Below, in pieces: positions 2,631 through 22,555 of a stretch of 47,342 nt of DNA (position 1 is its first letter; every line of letters starts with the position of its first letter). The DNA comes from Bacteroidota bacterium (GTDB lineage: Bacteria; Bacteroidota; Ignavibacteria; Palsa-1295). The stretch lies in the NCBI GenBank assembly GCA_021324685.1, contig JAJPIQ010000008.1:1-47342 (forward strand). The letters are read 5' to 3'. A program made the position numbers and the translations under genes. The notes below the pieces were generated by a model. That model was not told where the DNA came from. It saw nothing but the letters and a program-made list of their open reading frames with translations, and made no database searches.

Positions 2631-4460
2631 ATGGATTCCAATAAGACGACGACCATCGGGTTCATCCTCATTTTCGTCGTTTTTATGGCCTGGCTGCTCT
2701 ACATGAACCAGCAGGAGGCCAAACTTCCGCACCCCTCAAAACCGGCCACGGCGGAGACGACGCACGTAACCGTTCCACCGCCGGCCGCGGCGGCGCAGGC
2801 GGCCGCGCCGGGTCCGGCGACGGTGGACACCGCCCAGAGATCGACCGTCTTCCAGAGCGCGTCCGCGCCGAACGTGACCAAGACCGTCCAGACGCCACTC
2901 TTTACGACCCAACTTAGTTCCCGCGGCGCGTCGATTTCGAGCTTCGTACTGACGCAATACAAGACCTGGGACAAAAAGCCGGTGGAGCTCGTCGCGCCCG
3001 GCGAACCGGGCGGTGCAGATATTAACCTCAAGTTCGTCGCCTCGGACGGGAAAGTCGTCGCCACGAACGATCTGCCGTTTACGCTCGATCCGAAATCGCT
3101 TTCGCTTACCAGCGGCGACAGCGAAAGTTTTTCGGCCGTCTGCCGGTTGGATAGCGGGCGCTGGATCGAAAAAGTGTTCCATTTCTCCGGCGCACGCTAC
3201 GTGATCGGTATCGAATACAAGCTGCACGGCATGGAGAACACCGTAAGCGGGTATCACTACACGGCCGCGCTCGACGATCCGCTGCCCTACGTCGAACAGC
3301 GGACGATGGACGAGACCGCCGGTTCCAAAGCCTTTGCCGGGCAGGCCGGCGAAATGGAGGACCTCAACCTCACCAAAGCGAATGCGAACGATCACAAAAC
3401 GATCGACGGCGATATTTCCTATGCTGGCATTCGGAACGAATATTTCGAAGAAGCGATCGTCCCGTATGGAACGAAAACCGCCGGCGCCGAAATTTCCGGC
3501 CGCACCGTCGCCATTACGGACGGCGTCCTCGCGCGCTACAGCGCGTCCATTAACGTTCCCATCGGGCGGACCCCGGACGAGACGCTCTCCTTCCAGCTCT
3601 ATTTCGGTCCCCTCGAATACGACCGCGTCGCTTCGCTGGGCGTCGGCCTGGAGCAATCGATGTATTTCGGATGGACCTTTATCGTACGCCCGATCTCGAT
3701 CCATCTTTTGCTCCCGTTCTTCCTCTGGCTGCACGGATTTTTCTCGAACTGGGGCGTCGTCATCATCGTCTTTTCGATCGCGATCAAACTGATTACGATC
3801 CCGCTTTCGACGGGCCAGATGCGCTCGATGAAAAAAATGCAGGTCGTCCAGCCGATGGTCACGGAACTCCGCGAGAAGTACAAGGACGACCCGAAAAAGA
3901 TGAACGAGGAGATGCTGAAGATCTACCGGACCTACGGCGTCAATCCCGCCGGCGGCTGCCTTCCGCTCGTACTTCAGATGCCGATCCTTTTTGCGCTCTA
4001 TCAGGTACTCAAGAACGTGATCCAGCTCCGGCAGGCGCCCTTTGCATTCTGGATCAACGACCTTTCGGTGCCCGACATTCTCTTCCATTTTCCGCAGGGC
4101 CTTCCCTTCATCGGCGGCGCGCACATGAGCGGACTGACCCTCCTGCTCGTCGTCACGATGTTCATCCAGCAGATGTTCACCGTCACCGATCCGCGGCAAA
4201 AGCAGATGGCCTATATTATGCCGATCGTCTTCATTTTCATGTTCAATAACCTTCCCTCCGGTGTGGCCCTCTATTACTTCATGTTCAATATCTTCGGAGT
4301 TGCCCAGCAAATTTATCTCACGAAGATCGCTACGCCGCCGAGCCTCGAAGAACTAAAAAAGAATCCCAAAAAAGGCGGCGGACTCATGGGTAAACTTCAG
4401 GCCATGGAACAGGAACAGCGCAAAGCCCGCCAACAGCAGTATCTGGGAAAGAAGAAATAA
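2631..4460 (+). CDS. yidC: Membrane protein insertase YidC
   Basis: YidC inserts and folds inner-membrane proteins, alone or with SecYEG. The 609-residue length fits the Gram-negative form. There is an N-terminal membrane anchor (about residues 9-25), a Pro/Ala-rich linker, a large periplasmic beta domain (about 60-350), and then the conserved membrane core. The core contains NWGVVIIVFSIAIK, the cytoplasmic hairpin with QPMVTELREKYKDDP, and NPAGGCLPLVLQMP. Lys386 sits where E. coli has the groove arginine R366. The C-terminus is basic (QQQYLGKKK), as expected for ribosome contact. The usual upstream rpmH, rnpA and yidD genes are not present; the 162 bp before the ATG hold nothing recognisable. 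Identification is secure. Confidence 0.97.
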   Translation: MDSNKTTTIGFILIFVVFMAWLLYMNQQEAKLPHPSKPATAETTHVTVPPPAAAAQAAAPGPATVDTAQRSTVFQSASAPNVTKTVQTPLFTTQLSSRGASISSFVLTQYKTWDKKPVELVAPGEPGGADINLKFVASDGKVVATNDLPFTLDPKSLSLTSGDSESFSAVCRLDSGRWIEKVFHFSGARYVIGIEYKLHGMENTVSGYHYTAALDDPLPYVEQRTMDETAGSKAFAGQAGEMEDLNLTKANANDHKTIDGDISYAGIRNEYFEEAIVPYGTKTAGAEISGRTVAITDGVLARYSASINVPIGRTPDETLSFQLYFGPLEYDRVASLGVGLEQSMYFGWTFIVRPISIHLLLPFFLWLHGFFSNWGVVIIVFSIAIKLITIPLSTGQMRSMKKMQVVQPMVTELREKYKDDPKKMNEEMLKIYRTYGVNPAGGCLPLVLQMPILFALYQVLKNVIQLRQAPFAFWINDLSVPDILFHFPQGLPFIGGAHMSGLTLLLVVTMFIQQMFTVTDPRQKQMAYIMPIVFIFMFNNLPSGVALYYFMFNIFGVAQQIYLTKIATPPSLEELKKNPKKGGGLMGKLQAMEQEQRKARQQQYLGKKK

Positions 4461-4523
4461 CCGAACGCGCTCGGGATTGTGTAACGGCGAAGTTGAATGA
4501 TCGCAGCATCCTTTCAACTCTTC

Positions 4524-5011
4524 CTACAAGTCACGTACGGAAAAGTTTTGAGGATCCTTCATGCCCAGGCATATTTCAGGGAGTAATTCCGCCTGACCTC
4601 CCGCTAGTGGGATGGAACTATCAAGTCGAATCCAAAAAAAATCGAAGGCGATCGTTTCCTTCCCGGACGTTCCCCCGTCCGTTTCAAAATGTCTCCATTT
4701 TGAAGGCAGCGGCTCGCGGGTGATGATGTGAAATACGTGCCTTTCCTGAATCTCTTTACGATACAGAGACATGTCATAATAATAGATTCCCAGCTTTTTG
4801 TTTACGATAAAATCGGTTAAGCCCGTTTCTTCCCTTACTTCCCTGACGATCGCATCCAGGGGCTCCTCGTCCTCTTCAATGGTGCCCGCGGGAACCTGGA
4901 TCCCGGCTGAGGGCGAGGCGGGCTGCTCGAAGACCAGAAGCTTCTCGCCCTGAGTTATATAGCCTAAGACTTTTTTGTGAGTCGGTGTCCTTCAGGGATC
5001 GCAGGCTTCAC
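4524..5011 (-). CDS. Nudix hydrolase, reading frame interrupted by a -1 shift
   Basis: A GTG at 5011 opens a short frame (VKPAIPEGHRLTKKS) that stops after 15 codons. At the heptamer A AAA AAG (4976-4970) a -1 shift joins it to a long frame ending at 4524. The joined product is about 162 residues and contains a perfect Nudix box (G-x5-E-x7-REVREETGL), within which the catalytic glutamates are REVREE. Nudix enzymes hydrolyse nucleoside diphosphates linked to another moiety; the substrate here is unknown. Without the shift, the only in-frame ATG (4772) lies after the Nudix box and would give an inactive fragment. AGG arginine codons are used, unlike the neighbours, which suggests transfer. The cause may be programmed frameshifting, a recent mutation or a homopolymer sequencing error; these cannot be separated from sequence alone. 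Confidence 0.8.
4970..4976 (-). promoter_or_regulatory. A AAA AAG slippery heptamer in the Nudix gene
   Basis: On the minus strand the zero frame reads ACA AAA AAG TCT TAG. Slipping back one base gives AAA AAA GTC TTA GGC, which continues straight into the Nudix domain. A AAA AAG is the heptamer used for -1 frameshifting in bacterial dnaX and many IS elements. A Shine-Dalgarno-like GAAGGA lies about 11 nt upstream, close to the spacing of the dnaX stimulator. No strong downstream hairpin is evident; only the palindrome AGAAGCTTCT lies further on. Confidence 0.5.
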
Positions 5012-5076
5012 GATGTTGAAAAAAAATGGAATTCTCGTTACGGGATCACCAGTCTCTTCATCGTCACGGCCGACTG

Positions 5077-6036
5077 TCATTCCTTCACCAATTTCACGGT
5101 CTGCACTTCGCCGTAAGCGGTGATGATGCGGGCATAATATGTTCCCGATGGCAGGCCGGCGAGCGATATGGGCACCGATTTATTCCCCGGCTCGAATAAG
5201 CTTTCGAATCCCGGTTGGGAGAGCTCGTGACCCAGCACATCGAACAATTCTATCTTTACGTATGCTTCTTTTGAAATACCGAAGGAAATAATCGTTCCGT
5301 TGTTTACCGGATTTGGTGAGGCACTGGCGTTGGAAAGGATGGTTGGCATTGGCTTCTCAATGGAAGCATAGAGGAAGTGCTTTGCGAGGAGCGTATCGAG
5401 GCCGTCCAAGCTTGAAAACGGAGGGATTGTAGTATCGTTGGGATAATGCAGCCCGCCAATTGAGTCGTTGATCCAGCGCTGCCGTTGTTGTTTGCGAATA
5501 TACAACCATCCGTACATTACATCAGGTGTATCACAGGTCGTGTTTTGCACGATCCACTTCTCTAAGGCGACTGCGGTGTTCGTACTCTTAAAAAATTGCT
5601 GTTGCGATGTATCGGCCGGATAAAATATGATCTGCTGTACACACTGGCAAAAATATTCCGGGTCCGTCGTGTTGAAATACAGGACAGACTCAATCCAATG
5701 CCGATAATCTGCCCAGAGCTCCGAATCATGCATCGGGTTCCCGTTCTCCAGATTTTGAATGGCTACATTTAAATCGCCGAACGCGCGCCACGATTGATAC
5801 GAGTTAGGACAACGTTCAATATAGAGTTTCAGCGTATCATATCCTTCCTGATAATATCTCGACTGGATCTCTGATGTTCCAGTAACATACAAATAAAAGC
5901 AGGAATCCTGACTTGACGTATCGTTCGGGGCTGATACCGCCTTATGCGTGCCAATCCGATTGTGCGCGAACCCGCCGGCCGGAACGATTACGGCCAGCAG
6001 CAGCGCGATAAAGAGTAGCTCCTTCACCAACTTCAC
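5077..6036 (-). CDS. Secreted T9SS-sorted protein, function unknown
   Basis: This is a 319-residue protein with a GTG start at 6036. It overlaps the stop of the upstream Kelch gene by four bases (GTGA), so translation is probably coupled. A signal peptide (LLFIALLLAVIVPAGGFA) covers about residues 7-25. The middle has tetratricopeptide-like helical stretches (YYQEGYDTLKLYIERCPNSYQSW) rich in Tyr, Trp and Cys, without a recognised domain. The last 85 residues are a T9SS type A sorting domain: ASPNPVNNGTIISF, then VKIELFDVLGHEL, then LPSGTYYARI. It is presumably exported and attached to the surface with the Kelch protein. The protein begins and ends with the same peptide, VKLVKE, encoded by near-identical DNA. 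An in-frame tail after the stop resembles a second sorting-signal end. Confidence 0.85.
   Translation of the reverse strand: MKLVKELLFIALLLAVIVPAGGFAHNRIGTHKAVSAPNDTSSQDSCFYLYVTGTSEIQSRYYQEGYDTLKLYIERCPNSYQSWRAFGDLNVAIQNLENGNPMHDSELWADYRHWIESVLYFNTTDPEYFCQCVQQIIFYPADTSQQQFFKSTNTAVALEKWIVQNTTCDTPDVMYGWLYIRKQQRQRWINDSIGGLHYPNDTTIPPFSSLDGLDTLLAKHFLYASIEKPMPTILSNASASPNPVNNGTIISFGISKEAYVKIELFDVLGHELSQPGFESLFEPGNKSVPISLAGLPSGTYYARIITAYGEVQTVKLVKE
5080..5099 (-). repeat. 20-bp direct repeat, copy B (3' end of the T9SS gene)
   Basis: On the minus strand this reads CCGTGAAATTGGTGAAGGAA and encodes the terminal VKLVKE just before the TGA. It matches the copy at 6019-6038 in 18 of 20 positions, same orientation and same frame, 939 bp apart. 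Confidence 0.7.
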
Positions 6037-14091: not shown

Positions 14092-14107
14092 ATCATCGGA
14101 AGTGCCC

Positions 14108-15748
14108 ATGTCGTACGAAAAATTTATGAACGAACTTCCGCCCCGCGAATACTGGGGCGAGCGTGTCTACACCCGTCCGGAATTCAACTATCCTGACGAT
14201 CTGAATGCCGCCGCGGAACTCATCGATCGCAATGTCGCGGAAGGGCGCGGCTCACGTCCGGCGATTTATTATAAAGACCAGGTCATCACCTACGGTGAAT
14301 TGCTCGCGGACGTTAATAAAATGGGCCATGCGCTCAAACAGCTTGGCATCGAGCCCGGCGATCGCATCCTCATGCGGTTTCCAAATACGCCAACGGCCAT
14401 TGCGGTGTGGCTTGCCACACTCAAGATTGGCGGTGTTGCCGTTATGATCATGACAATGCTTCGAAGTCGTGAAATCAGCTATCGCACAAACGATGCTGAA
14501 TGCAAGCTCGTCCTCTGCGATGCCGCGTTTATCGATGAAGTTGAAAAAGCGGAACCTGCCATGACGACCGTCCGCGAAATTCTTGTAACGGATGGTTCCC
14601 ATCCGCGGTATCGTTCCTTCGAAGACCTTTGGAAAAATGAACCGCCCACATTGGCTCCCGCAAAACTTTCGCGATATGACCTTGCGCTCATCGGTTATAC
14701 ATCGGGCTCTACCGGCGATGCCAAGGGGACCGTTCATTTTCAGGACGATGTGTTAGCGATCGCCGATGGCTACGCGCGCAATATTTTAACTCCGACCGAA
14801 CACGATATTTTTACCGGCCATCCACCGCTCGCATTTACGTTCGGCTTAGGCGGTCTTCTCGTATTTCCGTTTCGGTTCGGCGCGAGTACGGTGCTTCTCG
14901 ACCAGTTCACTCCGGAAAACATGCTGAAGACGATCTCGAACTACAACGCGACGATCTCGTTCTGTGCGCCGACCTGCTATAATATGATGATGCGCCTGGA
15001 CGAAAAGAATGAGTACGACCTCTCGAAACTGCGCATTGGCGTGAGCGCCGGCGAAACGCTGCCCAAACCCATCTACGAAAAATGGAAAGCGAAATACGGC
15101 GTCGATCTGCTGGATGGAATTGGTTCCACCGAAATGCTGCATATCTTCGTTACCAACCGTCCCGGGGATGTCCGGGGCGGAGCAACGGGTAAGCCGGTGC
15201 CAGGATACCAGGCAAAGATTGTCGATGAACAGGGACGGGAACTTCCACCGAACACACCTGGCCTGATCGCCGTCCAGGGTCCGACAAGTTGCCGGTACTG
15301 GAAAAAGCCCGAACGCCAAATGGGATATGTCATGAACGGGTGGAATGTGCCCGGTGATGTATTTGTGATGGACGAGGAGGGATATTTTTATTACCAATGC
15401 CGCAACGATGACCTTATTATTACCGGTGGATACAACGTATCGCCGCCGGAACTTGAATCGGTCATCAACGAACATCCGGCCGTGAAGGAATCGGCCGTCG
15501 TTCCCAAGCCTGACGATCTCCGTGGGGCCATTGTTAAGGCGTATGTTGTCCTAAAACCGGGCGAGCAGGGAAGTGTGCATTTGGTAAAAGATATTCAGGA
15601 TTTCGTGAAACGGGAACTCGCACCCTATAAATATCCGCGCGAAGTAGAATTTATCGACGCACTGCCGCGAACCGATACGGGCAAAGTGCAACGCTACGTG
15701 CTCCGGGACCGGGCAAAACAGGAAATGGAAAACCTCGTCGAAGCGTAA
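14108..15748 (+). CDS. AMP-dependent acyl/aryl-CoA ligase (benzoate-CoA ligase-like)
   Basis: This enzyme of the ANL superfamily activates a carboxylic acid through an acyl-AMP to its CoA thioester. The 546-residue protein has all core motifs: the P-loop YTSGSTGDAKGTVH (about residue 196), the A5 motif DGIGSTEM, the A8 motif around GYFYYQCRNDDLIITGGYNVSP, and the A10 catalytic lysine in RTDTGKVQRY. The N-terminus (PREYWGERVYTRPEFNYPDDLNAA) and the region around PPLAFTFGLGG most resemble benzoate- and 2-aminobenzoate-CoA ligases. The substrate cannot be settled from sequence. It stands alone; no degradation genes are adjacent. The start at 14108 is chosen for its Shine-Dalgarno. Confidence 0.9.
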   Translation: MSYEKFMNELPPREYWGERVYTRPEFNYPDDLNAAAELIDRNVAEGRGSRPAIYYKDQVITYGELLADVNKMGHALKQLGIEPGDRILMRFPNTPTAIAVWLATLKIGGVAVMIMTMLRSREISYRTNDAECKLVLCDAAFIDEVEKAEPAMTTVREILVTDGSHPRYRSFEDLWKNEPPTLAPAKLSRYDLALIGYTSGSTGDAKGTVHFQDDVLAIADGYARNILTPTEHDIFTGHPPLAFTFGLGGLLVFPFRFGASTVLLDQFTPENMLKTISNYNATISFCAPTCYNMMMRLDEKNEYDLSKLRIGVSAGETLPKPIYEKWKAKYGVDLLDGIGSTEMLHIFVTNRPGDVRGGATGKPVPGYQAKIVDEQGRELPPNTPGLIAVQGPTSCRYWKKPERQMGYVMNGWNVPGDVFVMDEEGYFYYQCRNDDLIITGGYNVSPPELESVINEHPAVKESAVVPKPDDLRGAIVKAYVVLKPGEQGSVHLVKDIQDFVKRELAPYKYPREVEFIDALPRTDTGKVQRYVLRDRAKQEMENLVEA

Positions 15749-15754
15749 AAAGTG

Positions 15755-18700
15755 CTACTTCCAAAGGACCACCCTTTGGGTGAGTCCCGGGTCGAAGGAC
15801 CCCGAGGGTGTTCGAATACGTAGGTATCGGACACCCTCGCTGTTTCTTTGCGTCCCATGAGCTAGATCGAGTTCCATTGTTTGTACTCCACAACCCTCGA
15901 AATGCAGCGGAAATGTTGCAACGCGCTCGCCCAGTTCATCCCAGACTTCGAGAACGGCATCGTTGGAATATTCAATGGGAACTGCAAACGTGAGATGAAC
16001 AAGTCCGGTCGTAGGATTCGGAGAGATCCGATCGAGCCGAATCGTTCCTAAGGCAAGGAACGTGGCGAGCGTGCTATCCCCACAGGCCGGATCGAGCGTA
16101 AATTTGGCAATAGAATCTTCGAGAGTGACGGGTAGGCACGCCTCCGAGCCGTTGGCATCGTACAGGTGTATGTTCGTTAGTTCAATGGGCGTCGAAAGCG
16201 ATGTGCTTACGAACGGCCGGCAGACGATTTCGCACAGGATACCAGAATCGATCGCGGTATCGTTCGGAAGAGTGAGCTCAAGGGCGACACTATTTCTTGA
16301 AATGGGAATGAATGTTGCCTGAGCATTTGAGAACATGCCAACAGCTCCCAGACTTTCCGGAGTAAGGACATCGGTGTTCAACCGAAGTAAAAACGTGAGC
16401 CTCCGTGCTGTAACCGCGCTCGAATTCTTCGCAAAAACGGGAATCGTTACTGGCGTTGAGACCGGAGCATGAAGTTGAAGAGCCCCAAAAGCAATCTTTA
16501 TCGGTGCAACGCTCAATCCTTCACCGACCACGGAAATCACCGTATCATGTCGATTGCCGTTCGATTCCTGAAAATCGAACCGGATAGAGCTCTTGTACGC
16601 GCCCGTGTCGAGCGGCATAAACGACCCTGTTAGCGCAATGTTTTGACCTGCGCCGATAGCGAAAACGGTATCGCCGAATGAAAAGTCAGTCGAATCTTCT
16701 CCTGTTACACTCGCGTGTAGAATCTTAATAGAATCACAAAAATGATTTTGAATGGAAACAGAAAACGGCTGCATCTCGCACGGATACGCTTCAATATTTG
16801 GCGAGAGTGATAATATCGTCGTCCCGTTGTCCACGACACGGATGGAGACGGGGACAATAAACATTCCCGCCGAGGTCATCAGCTTTAAGCTGGAGCGAAT
16901 AATTCCAAGTGCCGTATCGGGTACGTATTGAAGGATAACAAGATCCGAATCGCCCGGAGGGATGGAAGGGGCGGGACGATTCTCCAGTGAGAATTTATTC
17001 GAATCTATACTTATTGTATCAAAAAGGTCCGAACAGCCTCGGCTATACAGAACGAGCGTGTCCGCAATGGCGGAGCAGACCGAAGTCGTCCCTAAAAACA
17101 ACGAATCTCTGGAAAGTCCGATACTGGAAGTTCCGGCAGTACCCATTCCGACGAGCGAAATAGTGGTATCATAGCGTCCTGAACTGGAGTAGGAAAAAAT
17201 GAAATGGACTCTTCCGGTATCGAGTCCCGTCTTGCGCGGCACCAACACGAAGTTTACGGTTCCAACGTTGCGCGGATAAATAGTATCGAAGGACGGCAAA
17301 CCAGTGGTGTGAAATGGGCCGCTCACAATTTCGGAGTCGAGCGTAAACGATTCGCAGGCCACATTCTTGAGCGTAAATGGAAATGCTTCGGAATCGCACA
17401 GTGGGGCAACGATCGAATCTGGAAACGAAATGGAAACCGCTCGGCCCGTTGAATATCCGGTTCCCATAAGTAGGATGGAATCGATACCTGCAGAATGGTA
17501 AACCCAAAGAAACGCGCGGTCCGGACCGATCGAATCAGGTATAAAATGCAGTAAAAACGACCTCGAGGTTTCAGGACTTAAAACGAAGGGCCGAAATTGC
17601 GACGCCAGCGAAAACGCATTGTCGGAAGAGACGATGCTGTCGATCGTTATTGGGCCGCAGCCAACATCGGTAATGCGTAAGGTATGGAATGCATCGGAAC
17701 AAATGCTCACGCTGTCGAAGTCGATCGTGTCGTGCTTCGTTGTTTCGGTAAACGAAAGCAAGCTTTGTTTAGAAGAAGTCCCTCGAAGTGGAATGCGAAT
17801 CGTTGTATCTTCTGTATAACCGTCCGGCTGTCGGACGGTTAGTCGCATAATGGCGGTCCACGGTATTTGTCTTGTGGGACGGTAGCGTATTTTGAGCGTA
17901 TCGTCGGACGTGCTTTGAATGAACGCGAATGGATTGTAATAAAGCGGAACACTTAATTCACCGGCGGAATCATTGAGAAATTCTACATTAGAAATTTGGA
18001 CGGAATCGCAGACACGATATCCGAGCAGGATCGGAACGATTGCGCTGTCGCAAACCGGCGACGAAATCGTATCGGGAAGAGAAAGCGTGACGAAGCGTAG
18101 GACCGATGGTGAAAGCGTCCCATCGCCACCGTCCATCGTCCGCCAGACCCCTCCCGAATCGTCGAAGGCGAAGACGACGGCACCGCGTCCAGTCACGCCG
18201 AAGCGTTTATCGTTCAGCGTGTTGGGCCCGCCTACGGTTTGCCAGTTTACACCCGCATCGGTCGAGCGGAGCATCGCGTTCGGTCCGATCGTTGCCGGTT
18301 CGCGGCCTTGCACATACATAATCGACTGACAAATATGCGACCCGGCAATACCGCCGCTAAGGCCGGAATCTCCATACACTTTAACGCGAGTTTCCGACCA
18401 CGAAGAAATTGGAACTTTTATTATTGCCGTTTCGCTCGAAAGCGTGAGCTGGTCCCGTTCGCTCGCTAAAAAGAAGTTCCGTGAAATCGGGTCTCCGTAC
18501 GGAGTCCACGCTTCGGAGGTCGACGCTATTGTCTGCCATGTTTTCCCGCTATCGCTCGTGTACAAATGTGGACACGATGCGTTCGAGGCTTGCGAAGTAA
18601 CAAAGCCGTGCGCGTCGTCCATAAAGTCGATCCCCAGGGCCTGATCGGTCGATGCAATATGGGTCCACGTTTTGCCAGTGTCCGCTGAAAACATGACACC

Positions 18701-19147
18701 GGGATCGATATCGCGATCCGTATAAAAAACGCCACGTTCCGTTTCCCGAATAGAGACCGGGAACCCGGCTTGATGAATGCGCGACCACGTTTGTCCTCCG
18801 TCGGTCGAGCGATAAATCCCGCTCCATCCCGTTTCCGTGAATTCCCGGATCGTAGCCCAGCCGTTCTTTCTATCGCGAAAAAAAATATCGGTGACCTCGC
18901 CGCGAAGATATGGGTTCGGCAGTTGCGAAAGCCGCCATGTTGAGCCACTATCCGTCGTGTAATAGATTTCAGCCGGTGAGATCGATAAATAATGTCCCGT
19001 TCCGATCACGCCTTCGCGCGCGTTAAAAAAAAACGCGGAAGAACCCATTGTATTACTAAGCGCAAGGACCTTCGACCAGTGTTGTGCATTCACGATCGAT
19101 GGCGCAAAACACAGTGCGCACGTCAGATAGATCGCCGCGCGCTTCAT
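15755..19147 (-). CDS. Giant secreted protein: BNR propeller, choice-of-anchor repeats, cohesin-like domain, T9SS tail
   Basis: This is a 1,130-residue protein. The start is at the ATG at 19147, which overlaps the upstream gene's stop (ATGA) and opens a signal peptide (MKRAAIYLTCALCFAPSIVNA). About residues 25-370 carry BNR/sortilin-type repeats with the SxDxGxTW motif: TTDSGSTWR, STDGGQTWSRI, TSDSGKTWQTIAS and STDAGVNWQ. About 390-880 hold four Ig-like choice-of-anchor (ASPM/Hydin-type) units, seen as recurring PLCDSEAFPFTL- and FTLDS-like segments. About 890-1040 look cohesin-like. A T9SS sorting domain follows (LDRISPNPTTGLVHLTF). It is likely a cell-surface or secreted adhesive or scaffolding protein. 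The sorting tail contains a palindromic sequence and is slightly longer than usual. Confidence 0.9.
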   Translation of the reverse strand: MKRAAIYLTCALCFAPSIVNAQHWSKVLALSNTMGSSAFFFNAREGVIGTGHYLSISPAEIYYTTDSGSTWRLSQLPNPYLRGEVTDIFFRDRKNGWATIREFTETGWSGIYRSTDGGQTWSRIHQAGFPVSIRETERGVFYTDRDIDPGVMFSADTGKTWTHIASTDQALGIDFMDDAHGFVTSQASNASCPHLYTSDSGKTWQTIASTSEAWTPYGDPISRNFFLASERDQLTLSSETAIIKVPISSWSETRVKVYGDSGLSGGIAGSHICQSIMYVQGREPATIGPNAMLRSTDAGVNWQTVGGPNTLNDKRFGVTGRGAVVFAFDDSGGVWRTMDGGDGTLSPSVLRFVTLSLPDTISSPVCDSAIVPILLGYRVCDSVQISNVEFLNDSAGELSVPLYYNPFAFIQSTSDDTLKIRYRPTRQIPWTAIMRLTVRQPDGYTEDTTIRIPLRGTSSKQSLLSFTETTKHDTIDFDSVSICSDAFHTLRITDVGCGPITIDSIVSSDNAFSLASQFRPFVLSPETSRSFLLHFIPDSIGPDRAFLWVYHSAGIDSILLMGTGYSTGRAVSISFPDSIVAPLCDSEAFPFTLKNVACESFTLDSEIVSGPFHTTGLPSFDTIYPRNVGTVNFVLVPRKTGLDTGRVHFIFSYSSSGRYDTTISLVGMGTAGTSSIGLSRDSLFLGTTSVCSAIADTLVLYSRGCSDLFDTISIDSNKFSLENRPAPSIPPGDSDLVILQYVPDTALGIIRSSLKLMTSAGMFIVPVSIRVVDNGTTILSLSPNIEAYPCEMQPFSVSIQNHFCDSIKILHASVTGEDSTDFSFGDTVFAIGAGQNIALTGSFMPLDTGAYKSSIRFDFQESNGNRHDTVISVVGEGLSVAPIKIAFGALQLHAPVSTPVTIPVFAKNSSAVTARRLTFLLRLNTDVLTPESLGAVGMFSNAQATFIPISRNSVALELTLPNDTAIDSGILCEIVCRPFVSTSLSTPIELTNIHLYDANGSEACLPVTLEDSIAKFTLDPACGDSTLATFLALGTIRLDRISPNPTTGLVHLTFAVPIEYSNDAVLEVWDELGERVATFPLHFEGCGVQTMELDLAHGTQRNSEGVRYLRIRTPSGSFDPGLTQRVVLWK
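15764..15839. repeat. Cluster of three inverted repeats in the 3' end of a T9SS gene
   Basis: The three adjacent hairpins are CACCC-TTT-GGGTG (15770-15782), GGGTC-GAAG-GACCC (15789-15802), and CGAGGGTGT...ACACCCTCG (15803-15839, 9-bp arms, 19-bp spacer). All lie within the last codons of the minus-strand gene and near the end of the converging ligase gene. They resemble an intergenic palindromic (REP/MITE-like) element and may also act as a terminator. Confidence 0.5.
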
Positions 19148-20970
19148 CGTTTGATGAGTAAGACCCGCGCTAATTTCCCCGCGCAGCGGATAAAATAGGT
19201 TCCATTTGTTAAATCGTCGAGAATCCCACTCGCATCCCGAAGCTTTCCTGCGGCAACCTCTTGTCCGAGGCAATCGAAGATCTGAACGTCCTCATTCGGC
19301 GAGACCCCAACAAGTGTAATGCCTCCGGAAGTTGGATTGGGAACGACCGTGAGTATGCTCGAATCGAGCGAAGCGACCGACGCCGCCTCGACCCCTTCTC
19401 CATACAGCGAGACAAACGTGTGCCCGGCATTCGTCCCAATCTCGATCGATTCAAGTGCCGGACCGGGACTCTCGGGGGCATAAGACACTCGCATCATGGC
19501 AGTACTGTCTCGCGTAATCAGGATTGGGAACGTTAATTTTGGCAATTCAAAAAGCGCCGGATTGCTTGAAACAATGGAATCGATTCTTAACACGCTGCAA
19601 CCCGAGTCTTGGATTCTGAGGGTCATCGCACGTGACCGCCCTACCTCGACCGTTCCAAAATTGAGACTGTCGGCGATCGAGAGCTCCGGAGGCAATGTGA
19701 CGGCAATTGCAACTGCTCCAAAGTCGGCATGCTCTCGGAACTTCCATTCCAGGCTGTGGAACCAGAGTCGCAGCACGATGGGATCGGTCCCTATGTTGCT
19801 CGCGGAATATCGCAGTGCAATATCGGCGGAATTGCCGAAGAGCGTTTGAGGGTCGATCGCCCGAACGATCGTTCCTCTCGCATGGAGTATCGAGATCGAA
19901 TCGATACGAACGCCGGTGCAAATCGAAGAGGAAATATGAATAAAAAGGGGAACTGAATTAGATGTACAAATCGTGTCGACAATCGTATCGGCTCTGACCC
20001 GCATCGCGGAGGCTACGGAATCGGGCACGAGGCCGTCTGCCCCATTATGACTTACGAAGAGTGATCCATAACCAAACCCGAAACTTGCCCACCAATAGAG
20101 CGTCGAACCACGATCGAAAGTCCATGCACCACGAACGAGTAGGCCATTTTCGGACGGAGACGGACCGGCATCTTCAAATGTCAATCCCGCATCGCGGCTG
20201 CGCATAATATCCCCATTCGAGCCATTGCGATCGCCATTGGTGATATAAAAAGCGCCAGAGCAATCGTGCGCACCGAAGACCTGACCGCTAAATGTTCCTA
20301 ACGCGAACTGCAGCGGAGGCAGGACAGCATTCCAGGAAAGCCCACGATCGGAACTTTCAAAGAGCGTGTCGCCACCGACCCAGGCGAGGCGATGAGCGGT
20401 ATCGACAAAAATGCTGGCGCAGCGGCTCATATAAGAACGTACCACGTTCCATGTAACTCCGCCGTCGATGGAGCGATAAATATTGCCTGCAGAGACGGCG
20501 AGAAGTTCTTTTGAAGAAAAATAATCGATAGCTACGATCGAATCGCCACGCACAATACCAGTTGTGGGCAATAGGGTATCGCCCGCAATGCTGAAGTATA
20601 ATTCGCTGTCCGAATACAGAAACACTCGGTCTGTCGTCGCACGGACGAGAGCGAGAATGCCATGGGTAAAAGAAGTATCGATCGCCGTGGGATGCCAGGC
20701 GGACCAGCGACCGGTCCCTATGTAGAGAGTATCTCCATCCGTTGCCCAGGCGACGTCCGTGTTCTGAATATCAATTGCGGAGACCGGTTTCAAAAATACG
20801 GGATTAAAAACCGTATCGCTTACGCGTAAAATTTCGGTTCCATCGCAGATAAGGCCCGAATGTGCGTCGTAAAAATCGGCAGCGCTTACGGTGGTCAGAA
20901 TGTTCCAGGACCCGTTCGCTTCGGCGCAGAAGACCATACACAACCAGCCGATCACGAAAGCTCGAAGCAT
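19144..20970 (-). CDS. Secreted BNR-repeat protein with choice-of-anchor domain and T9SS tail
   Basis: This is a 608-residue protein. I start it at the ATG at 20970 (MLRAFVIGWLCMVFCAEANGSW), a signal peptide; the open frame begins nine codons earlier at 20997. About residues 25-330 show BNR-like repeats (RSIDGGVTWNVVRS, SSDRGLSWNAVLP and SRDAGLTFEDAG), predicting a beta-propeller. About 340-520 contain Ig-like choice-of-anchor units (LSIADSLNFGTVEVGRS). The end is a T9SS domain (VVPNPTSGGITL and DVQIFDCLGQEV, ending VLLIKR). It overlaps the next gene by ATGA, so this protein and the 1,130-residue protein are probably made together, with related domain architecture suggesting an old duplication. 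Function is unknown. Confidence 0.9.
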   Translation of the reverse strand: MLRAFVIGWLCMVFCAEANGSWNILTTVSAADFYDAHSGLICDGTEILRVSDTVFNPVFLKPVSAIDIQNTDVAWATDGDTLYIGTGRWSAWHPTAIDTSFTHGILALVRATTDRVFLYSDSELYFSIAGDTLLPTTGIVRGDSIVAIDYFSSKELLAVSAGNIYRSIDGGVTWNVVRSYMSRCASIFVDTAHRLAWVGGDTLFESSDRGLSWNAVLPPLQFALGTFSGQVFGAHDCSGAFYITNGDRNGSNGDIMRSRDAGLTFEDAGPSPSENGLLVRGAWTFDRGSTLYWWASFGFGYGSLFVSHNGADGLVPDSVASAMRVRADTIVDTICTSNSVPLFIHISSSICTGVRIDSISILHARGTIVRAIDPQTLFGNSADIALRYSASNIGTDPIVLRLWFHSLEWKFREHADFGAVAIAVTLPPELSIADSLNFGTVEVGRSRAMTLRIQDSGCSVLRIDSIVSSNPALFELPKLTFPILITRDSTAMMRVSYAPESPGPALESIEIGTNAGHTFVSLYGEGVEAASVASLDSSILTVVPNPTSGGITLVGVSPNEDVQIFDCLGQEVAAGKLRDASGILDDLTNGTYFIRCAGKLARVLLIKR

Positions 20971-21040
20971 GCGTCTTTCCGTAACGGAATGGCTCATAGC
21001 AACGTTCGAGGAGGGCGATGTGACTGCCGGAAGCCGTTGC

Positions 21041-22555
21041 TTACGCTTGAACGACCGGCTTCGCCTTTAAAAAGCTTGGCGGCGCGATTGTTTTTTTCAC
21101 TTCTGTTGGAATTTCAACGTCAATCGGAAGTTCCGCCGAAACGACATTCGACGGGACACTCTTATTACCGGCGCGATCGTAGGCCCGAAGATAGTATTGG
21201 TAAGTAATGCCGGGCGCAGCAAGATGGTCCGTCCACATCGACGTGGTAATGGAATAAATATGCGAGAACGATTTTCCGGCGTCATCGGAACGCCACACTT
21301 CGTATCCCATAACGGCCTCATTGTCAGTCGCCTGTTTCCAGCTTAAGCGAATATTGCCCGAACGTACGAGGATGGAAAGCGAGTCCGGAACACTCCACTC
21401 CGGCGCGACATCATCTTCGGAGTATGGCGCCTGAATTTCATCTTTCGGCCATAAGCCGCAGACGACCTCATGAAAGTTCTCATCGAGTGCTTTGCAGATA
21501 TTCCAATAGATGCATTTTACGATCTTATCGGAGTTCCCCGTCCGCGATTTTTTTGGGAGATCCGGGTCCGCTAACAGCGCACGCGCCATTCCTATGAGAT
21601 CGGCACGGCCATCCTGCAACACCGCTTCGGCGAATTCCGGAGTGGGAATTTTCCCCGTCGCAACGACAGGCGTTTCAAAGCCATGCCGTCGCAGCATTCT
21701 GCGCGCGGCTTCTGCCATGTGAAGGTTATAGCCGTCGGGATATTCGAGCGGCGGCATGCAGCGGTCTCCCGAGTAGCCGGTGTACGGATAGAGTACTTCG
21801 CCTTCTTTATGAACCGCGTCTTCGAACTTCCCGCCGGCCGAAAGTGAAATATAATCCACACCGCGCATCGTGGGCGATACTTCCTGAGCGAATTTCAGCG
21901 CGATGATCTGCGATTCTTCCGTTGTATATCCGCCTTTAATACACTCTTCCCCTAAAAAGCGGACGCCGACCGGGAAATCATTCCCGACCATTTCGCGTAC
22001 TTTTTTGATCACCTGCAAGGGTAGGCGCATGCGATTATCGAGCGATTTACCGCCATAGAGATCGGGCCGTTTATTGCGCTTCGAAAGAAAGCTCGAAAGC
22101 GTATAAGCATGCGCCATGTGCATTTCAACGCCGTCGAATCCGCATTCGCGCGCTCGAAGAGCAGCCTGGCCGTATTGCTCGACGATCTGCTGAATATCGG
22201 CGATCGACAAGTCCTCGATCTTTTGCCGCCAGCCCGAGCGAGCAATTTTCAGGAAGTGAATGATCTGCGGGACCGCCTTCGAATCGCTCGTATCGTGGAT
22301 CTTTTTTGCAAGTTCCGTAAGTCCGGGTTTGAATTCATCCGTGCAAATCCTGAGCAGCGGACCCGATTTCGCGGTATGCACCGCCATCGCTTCGAGCACG
22401 ATAAGCCCCACTTCGCCCTTGGCAAATCGCACATAGCGGTCCGTAATATCTTTGTTGACAAATCCATCTTCTCCCGAAAGGCGCGTCACCATTGCCGGCA
22501 ACACCAGCCGGTTCGGGAGCGTCATGGAATTAATACGGAACGGGGTGAAGAGCAT
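21041..22555 (-). CDS. Old Yellow Enzyme family flavin oxidoreductase fused to a fibronectin type III domain
   Basis: This is a 504-residue protein without a signal peptide. Residues 1-340 form the FMN-binding TIM barrel of the OYE/2,4-dienoyl-CoA reductase family: LFTPFRINSMTLPNRLV, GFDGVEMHMAHAYTLSSFLS (H146 and H149 at the substrate site), NKRPDLYGG, and LIGMARALLADPDLP. After it comes a degenerate iron-sulfur motif: C348, C354 and C366 remain, but position 351 is Trp where a Cys is expected. The usual C-terminal FAD/NAD module is missing. Residues 384-478 instead form a fibronectin III domain (LSWKQATDNEAVMGYEVWRS and YYLRAYDRAGNKS). Substrate is unknown. It lies 70 bp upstream of the T9SS protein starting at 20970 and may share its transcript. 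Confidence 0.9.
   Translation of the reverse strand: MLFTPFRINSMTLPNRLVLPAMVTRLSGEDGFVNKDITDRYVRFAKGEVGLIVLEAMAVHTAKSGPLLRICTDEFKPGLTELAKKIHDTSDSKAVPQIIHFLKIARSGWRQKIEDLSIADIQQIVEQYGQAALRARECGFDGVEMHMAHAYTLSSFLSKRNKRPDLYGGKSLDNRMRLPLQVIKKVREMVGNDFPVGVRFLGEECIKGGYTTEESQIIALKFAQEVSPTMRGVDYISLSAGGKFEDAVHKEGEVLYPYTGYSGDRCMPPLEYPDGYNLHMAEAARRMLRRHGFETPVVATGKIPTPEFAEAVLQDGRADLIGMARALLADPDLPKKSRTGNSDKIVKCIYWNICKALDENFHEVVCGLWPKDEIQAPYSEDDVAPEWSVPDSLSILVRSGNIRLSWKQATDNEAVMGYEVWRSDDAGKSFSHIYSITTSMWTDHLAAPGITYQYYLRAYDRAGNKSVPSNVVSAELPIDVEIPTEVKKTIAPPSFLKAKPVVQA

Follow-up and report, generated by a model that had tools for sequence, protein, structure and literature searches.

The window, which is the whole stretch of 47,342 nucleotides analysed here, carries a gene for an Old Yellow Enzyme (OYE) barrel followed by a fibronectin type III (FN3) domain, hereafter OYE-FN3. 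It lies between priA and a pair of BNR/T9SS proteins. An earlier reading of the sequence alone had given the gene the limits listed in Table 1. These proved correct, and the coding strand is the minus strand.

Table 1. Positions of OYE-FN3, its parts and other genes of the window discussed in the text
Feature	Position	Strand	Basis or remark
OYE-FN3 gene	21041..22555	minus	504 aa, ATG start, whole reading frame
OYE domain, predicted FMN-binding TIM barrel	21542..22552	minus	about residues 2-338; Pfam PF00724, Foldseek
HMAHAY, residues 146-151	22103..22120	minus	H-x-x-H-x-Y active-site signature of OYE ene-reductases
C-x5-C-x11-C motif, residues 348-366, CIYWNICKALDENFHEVVC	21458..21514	minus	lacks the second Cys of the four-Cys Fe-S motif
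FN3 domain, residues 392-473	21137..21382	minus	Pfam fn3, family profile, model strands
BNR/choice-anchor protein with T9SS tail	19144..20997	minus	44 nt downstream of OYE-FN3; treated here as a neighbour only
Benzoate-CoA ligase family gene	14102..15748	plus	TIGR02262, 406 bits vs a cut-off of 375
2Fe-2S ferredoxin-like gene, 107 aa	38707..39030	minus	51% identity over the match to the planctomycete ferredoxin adjacent to OYE-FN3

Domain architecture of OYE-FN3

The Pfam profile Oxidored_FMN (PF00724, cut-off 27 bits) matched residues 2-236 and a second stretch with an E-value of 1e-49 and 170 bits. The best Foldseek match was the Thermus OYE (prob 1.00), whose HMAHGY aligns to the HMAHAY of OYE-FN3, and the latter was invariant across the family alignment (A1). 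With a barrel profile above the cut-off and the substrate-binding signature H-x-x-H-x-Y (or N) of the family, OYE-FN3 is a predicted FMN-binding Old Yellow Enzyme; databases name its family only as a generic flavin oxidoreductase. Searches with Pfam and NCBIfam profiles found no FAD/NAD module, and FN3 stands in its place. As profile matches and conserved orthologs demonstrate, this domain swap, described in the sequence-only reading, is real. When the N-terminus was read by eye, no signal-peptide-like stretch was seen and the barrel began directly, in agreement with the cytoplasmic appearance described before. A profile search gave no Por_Secre_tail match. Having neither a signal peptide nor a C-terminal sorting domain, OYE-FN3 does not look like T9SS cargo.

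The fn3 profile (PF00041) hit the window protein weakly (E-value 1e-3 for the whole protein and 6.6e-5 for the fragment), and the score of 23.5 bits is by itself below the gathering cut-off of 25 bits. PF00041 was matched by 15 of the 26 OYE-FN3 family members, and a profile built from the domain retrieved the FN3 domains of titin (1e-24) and chitinase A1 (1e-10) from the PDB. The AlphaFold model displayed seven strands in this region, where the pLDDT was about 58-84. As a whole the model was weak (10 sequences, overall pLDDT 65, under 50 at residues 347-379), too weak to read either the placement of FN3 against the barrel or the cysteine geometry. Weak in the single sequence and clear in the family, the predicted FN3 domain is genuine, a seven-strand beta sandwich, as had been claimed. 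One ortholog (L043:6001-7554) has an extra linker stretch, APLLEKEGEFENPRLSKAGAGGGW, between OYE and FN3, which looks like an in-frame insertion derived from a repeat; at the same locus, an upstream frame (4935-5975) duplicates 22 aa of the OYE start.

In the window protein, the cysteine motif after the barrel reads C-x2-W-x2-C-x11-C. Its three cysteines, spaced C-x5-C-x11-C, were fixed in all 41 sequences inspected (27/27 OYE-FN3 and 14/14 of a sister clade without FN3). The four-cysteine Fe-S motif of long-form OYEs is therefore incomplete in OYE-FN3, since its second Cys is missing from all 41. An Anaerolineae relative with the full module (L044) has C-x2-C-x2-C-x11-C at identical spacing. 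Most likely, to judge from the alignment, one cysteine was lost in the common ancestor of OYE-FN3 and the sister clade, and the other three were retained. The sequence-only reading had taken the motif for a damaged remnant. Because the three cysteines are constant, the FN3-less sister clade included, decay was rejected, and the motif is on this comparison a stable variant.

Distribution and history of the family

Orthologs with 72-90% identity were found in all 12 genomes of the same family, some of them cut off by contig ends, and none of comparable score in 48 other genomes of the class. In a 395-genome sample of the phylum, the strong matches outside the family lacked FN3 and were OYEs with about 33% identity. 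A contig scan retrieved OYE-FN3 from MAGs labelled Kapaibacterium or Ignavibacteria and from one planctomycete. Among 199 planctomycete genomes, about 20 contained the OYE-FN3 form, one or two as fragments only, with 54-63% identity to the window protein, and about 51 contained the sister form, which lacks FN3 and has extra residues inside the barrel; the two forms were separated by match pattern, with whole sequences inspected for 14 of the sister form. Many of the compared genomes are fragmented assemblies. The search for the OYE plus FN3 architecture thus returned a conserved family in Kapabacteria and planctomycetes. No paper on this architecture was found in the open-access literature searched, and within that literature OYE-FN3 is an undescribed enzyme family.

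In the tree, OYE-FN3 and the FN3-less sister clade formed one group (100/99), and the Kapabacterial OYE-FN3 group stood beside the sequences of planctomycetes G586 and G557 (83/95). Two long-branch rows distort parts of the tree other than the OYE-FN3 grouping. The position of G586 and G557 suggests a transfer between Kapabacteria and planctomycetes.

Genes of a probable aryl-CoA pathway

The planctomycete operon runs in the order benzoate-CoA ligase, SDR, RidA, MarR, PRK08258 hydratase (ECH), acyl-CoA dehydrogenase (ACAD), often a 2Fe-2S ferredoxin, and OYE-FN3 as the last gene. ECH and ACAD were present at 16 of 19 planctomycete OYE-FN3 loci, and the ferredoxin gene adjoined OYE-FN3 at about half of the loci. 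At L040, L093, L096 and L097, a PaaA-like di-iron gene takes the place of the ferredoxin; where scanned, the PaaA-like proteins scored about 64-67 bits to PaaA_PaaC, far below the PaaA equivalog cut-off. The same gene set occurs in Paracoccus denitrificans and Phyllobacterium, where it surrounds, on annotated plasmids, a fusion called 'bifunctional salicylyl-CoA 5-hydroxylase/oxidoreductase', which is the enzyme class of 2-aminobenzoyl-CoA monooxygenase/reductase (ACMR). By gene content, the planctomycete operon is the gene set of the proteobacterial 2-aminobenzoyl-CoA (abm-type) clusters; the abm pathway is that of Azoarcus evansii (Schuhle 2001, as cited in PMC3534580 and PMC4539516).

The abm-type set (ligase, monooxygenase, hydratase, RidA and ACAD) was also present in the genome of the window, spread over three contigs. 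The PRK08258 hydratase (367 bits vs a cut-off of 330), RidA and ACAD form one cluster, beside which no SDR was found. The ligase in the window is likely to be the activating enzyme of the pathway, as its profile match suggests. In the relative G003, ACAD-RidA-ECH, the ligase and OYE-FN3 lie inside about 20 kb, the monooxygenase not among them. A PaaA-like match (G000:C44:88925) was left out of the pathway, being weak with 23% identity. The kynureninase profile, for a candidate anthranilate source, stayed below its cut-off throughout the family. The OYE-FN3 family, as its gene neighbours indicate, travels with genes for degrading CoA-linked aromatic acids, and we consider it quite probable that the enzyme belongs to an abm-like aryl-CoA pathway.

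As the FAD/NAD module is missing, hydride has to come from free NAD(P)H or electrons from a separate donor. A separate donor had been proposed from the sequence alone; that part is one of the two options, and the ferredoxin adjacency fits it without proving it. The ferredoxin-like gene of the window may possibly encode such a donor.

A stand-alone monooxygenase and a single OYE

A search of 18 genomes with OYE-FN3 detected the monooxygenase half of the ACMR-type fusion in 17. No monooxygenase match was obtained in G466 and G475, both of which encode OYE-FN3. The Kapabacterial monooxygenase is encoded by itself, with a length of about 376-393 aa, and stops where the fused OYE would start. The copy in the genome of the window (G000:C40:6532-7677, 382 aa) matches positions 1-383 of the 768 in the fusion model NF006101. 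Against PRK08255, it scored 453 bits (positions 1-383 only) and OYE-FN3 129 bits; neither half reaches the equivalog cut-off of 1078 bits, which is set for a single fused protein. Short, apparently stand-alone monooxygenase frames were also seen in the planctomycetes G586 and G557, which hold OYE-FN3, and in five with the sister form. The sampled split monooxygenases, planctomycete and Kapabacterial, formed one clade (100/100), and in the genomes searched they occur only together with OYE-FN3 or the sister-form OYE.

Across the class, hydratase and monooxygenase share the presence/absence pattern of OYE-FN3. In planctomycetes, the monooxygenase accompanied OYE-A/B in 59/71 vs 6/128 genomes (Fisher p 3e-31, a value that overstates the co-occurrence because it ignores the relatedness of the genomes). 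Ten Kapabacterial genomes and the planctomycete G586, which is of the split type, have no PF00724 gene above the cut-off besides OYE-FN3; G557 has one further such gene. Most OYE-FN3 planctomycetes, e.g. G512, G561, G576 and G430, carry an intact monooxygenase/OYE fusion elsewhere. OYE-FN3 shares about 28% identity with the OYE half of the fusion, and the two fall in separate clades.

Discussion

OYE-FN3 resembles three known systems, each in part. As in the ACMR (PRK08255) or abm pathway, an AMP ligase, SDR, RidA, MarR, PRK08258 hydratase and acyl-CoA dehydrogenase are neighbouring or co-occurring, and the Kapabacterial monooxygenase is clearly homologous to the N-terminal half of ACMR. Unlike in ACMR, this monooxygenase is separate, and the OYE, which has a three-Cys motif and FN3, belongs to another OYE lineage. 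The cysteine motif occupies the matching place in long-form Fe-S OYEs (BaiCD, mycofactocin-associated OYE, 2,4-dienoyl-CoA reductase, trimethylamine dehydrogenase), and BaiCD (210 bits) and mycofactocin OYE_2 (200 bits) gave the best NCBIfam barrel scores; OYE-FN3, however, has only three of the four cysteines, and at its C-terminus FN3 takes the place of the whole FAD/NAD module. The third resemblance is to type III aryl-CoA reductases, OYE-family enzymes for the reduction of aryl-CoA thioesters (PMC6502838); one of them, 2-naphthoyl-CoA reductase (NCR), was among the fold matches of OYE-FN3. NCR, which functions in anaerobic naphthalene degradation, has retained the C-terminal module of the long form (PMC6502838), whereas OYE-FN3 lacks that module and occurs in an oxygenase-pathway context.

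We propose for OYE-FN3 the role of a cytoplasmic flavin reductase in an aerobic pathway that handles aromatic acids as CoA thioesters, of the kind known for 2-aminobenzoate (abm); the substrate, reaction, electron donor and metal content of the enzyme and the role of FN3 are what we infer here. An AMP-forming ligase would produce the aryl-CoA, an FAD monooxygenase would hydroxylate it, and reduction of the hydroxylated ring by the OYE-type enzyme would give a cyclohexenone-CoA, no longer aromatic, to be processed by RidA, SDR, a crotonase-type hydratase and acyl-CoA dehydrogenase. In the classical organisms, monooxygenase and OYE are fused; in Kapabacteria, the monooxygenase is encoded alone and OYE-FN3, the only OYE of the genome, would reduce in trans. 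FN3 would tether OYE-FN3 to its partner or donor. Electrons would enter at the three-cysteine site, provided that a metal cluster is bound there.

We give an even chance to the idea that, in Kapabacteria, OYE-FN3 serves in trans as the reductase for the missing OYE half of the fusion. The orthologs, the operon, the gene set shared with the fusion, the pathway genes of the own genome, the split clade, the sole OYE and the linkage in G003 speak for it. Against it stand the intact fusion of most OYE-FN3 planctomycetes, in which a reductase half is already present, the distance to the fused OYE, the missing monooxygenase match in G466 and G475, the scatter of the own pathway genes without the SDR, and the fragmented assemblies. 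In planctomycetes with an intact fusion, OYE-FN3 must do something else or be redundant, and a second reduction step is possible there. OYE-FN3 may thus belong to the aryl-CoA pathway and carry out an extra reduction, or serve a parallel branch with a different aryl-CoA, instead of the step of the fused OYE. The coexistence of both enzymes in G512, G561, G576 and G430, the PaaA-like di-iron gene at the four loci named above, which hints at a different oxygenation, and the distant relationship to the fused OYE would all agree with this, but 10 Kapabacterial genomes and G586 have no other OYE gene above the cut-off for the first reduction. We regard it as a serious though less probable reading. 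The most specific form of the in-trans role, a split 2-aminobenzoyl-CoA monooxygenase/reductase in which a different OYE lineage replaces the lost half, with FN3 for docking and a 2Fe-2S ferredoxin passing electrons to a cluster on the three cysteines, is doubtful as a complete package.

Two further explanations leave the pathway aside. The FN3 part could be an assembly join or a frame accident, as the window's own fn3 score below the gathering cut-off might suggest; the full fusion, however, recurs in independent assemblies from two phyla with 54-90% identity, and GC is even across the OYE/FN3 join. An artefact, named beforehand as what would overturn the fusion, was thus rejected and has practically no chance of being correct. 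Otherwise OYE-FN3 could be an ene-reductase or detoxification enzyme, surface-linked or of general function, that is tied to the T9SS proteins encoded downstream and docks through FN3 to a polymer or a surface protein; the sequence-only reading pointed in this direction. It counted two T9SS-type proteins downstream. The nearer one, which lies 44 nt from OYE-FN3, does bear a tail, barely above the cut-off (23.7 vs 23); in the other, 15755-19273, the profile search recognised none. A T9SS pair follows OYE-FN3 directly or with one gene between at L033, L034, L035, L037 and L043, and only its first gene at L038. The pair is non-adjacent, about 5 kb off, in L042/G003, the planctomycete orthologs (54-63% identity) sit in the aryl-CoA degradation operon without T9SS-type proteins, and OYE-FN3 has no signal-peptide-like N-terminus or sorting tail. 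As the neighbourhood is unconserved beyond part of the Kapabacteria, a surface function was rejected as improbable; the T9SS neighbours are probably incidental.

A family so far labelled as generic flavin oxidoreductase thereby gains a concrete, testable role, and oxygen-dependent CoA-thioester routes for aromatic acids are suggested for Kapabacteria and many planctomycetes, which are known mostly from metagenomes. If the in-trans role is true, a classic fused flavoenzyme would operate as two separate proteins, and the cytoplasmic FN3, an unusual location for this domain, would be a candidate coupling part.

Some minor observations were made at the loci. As listed, the two long BNR/choice-anchor frames of the window (15755-19273 and 19144-20997) overlap by about 130 nt. 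At the three Kapabacterial loci L036, L038 and L039, OYE-FN3 has a CADD-family gene upstream; the L038 copy (4394-5098, plus strand) scored 259 bits with TIGR04305 against a cut-off of 200, and the other two were recognised by sequence similarity. Being limited to these loci and of a putative folate-related family, it was rejected as a partner oxygenase and is a chance neighbour or folate-related. A betaproteobacterial plasmid, pTEGF4 of Limnohabitans (L119:8923-10410), carries the sister OYE without FN3 in the vicinity of genes for tryptophanase, 3-oxoadipyl-CoA thiolase and a 3-hydroxyacyl-CoA dehydrogenase, which points to aromatic metabolism there too.
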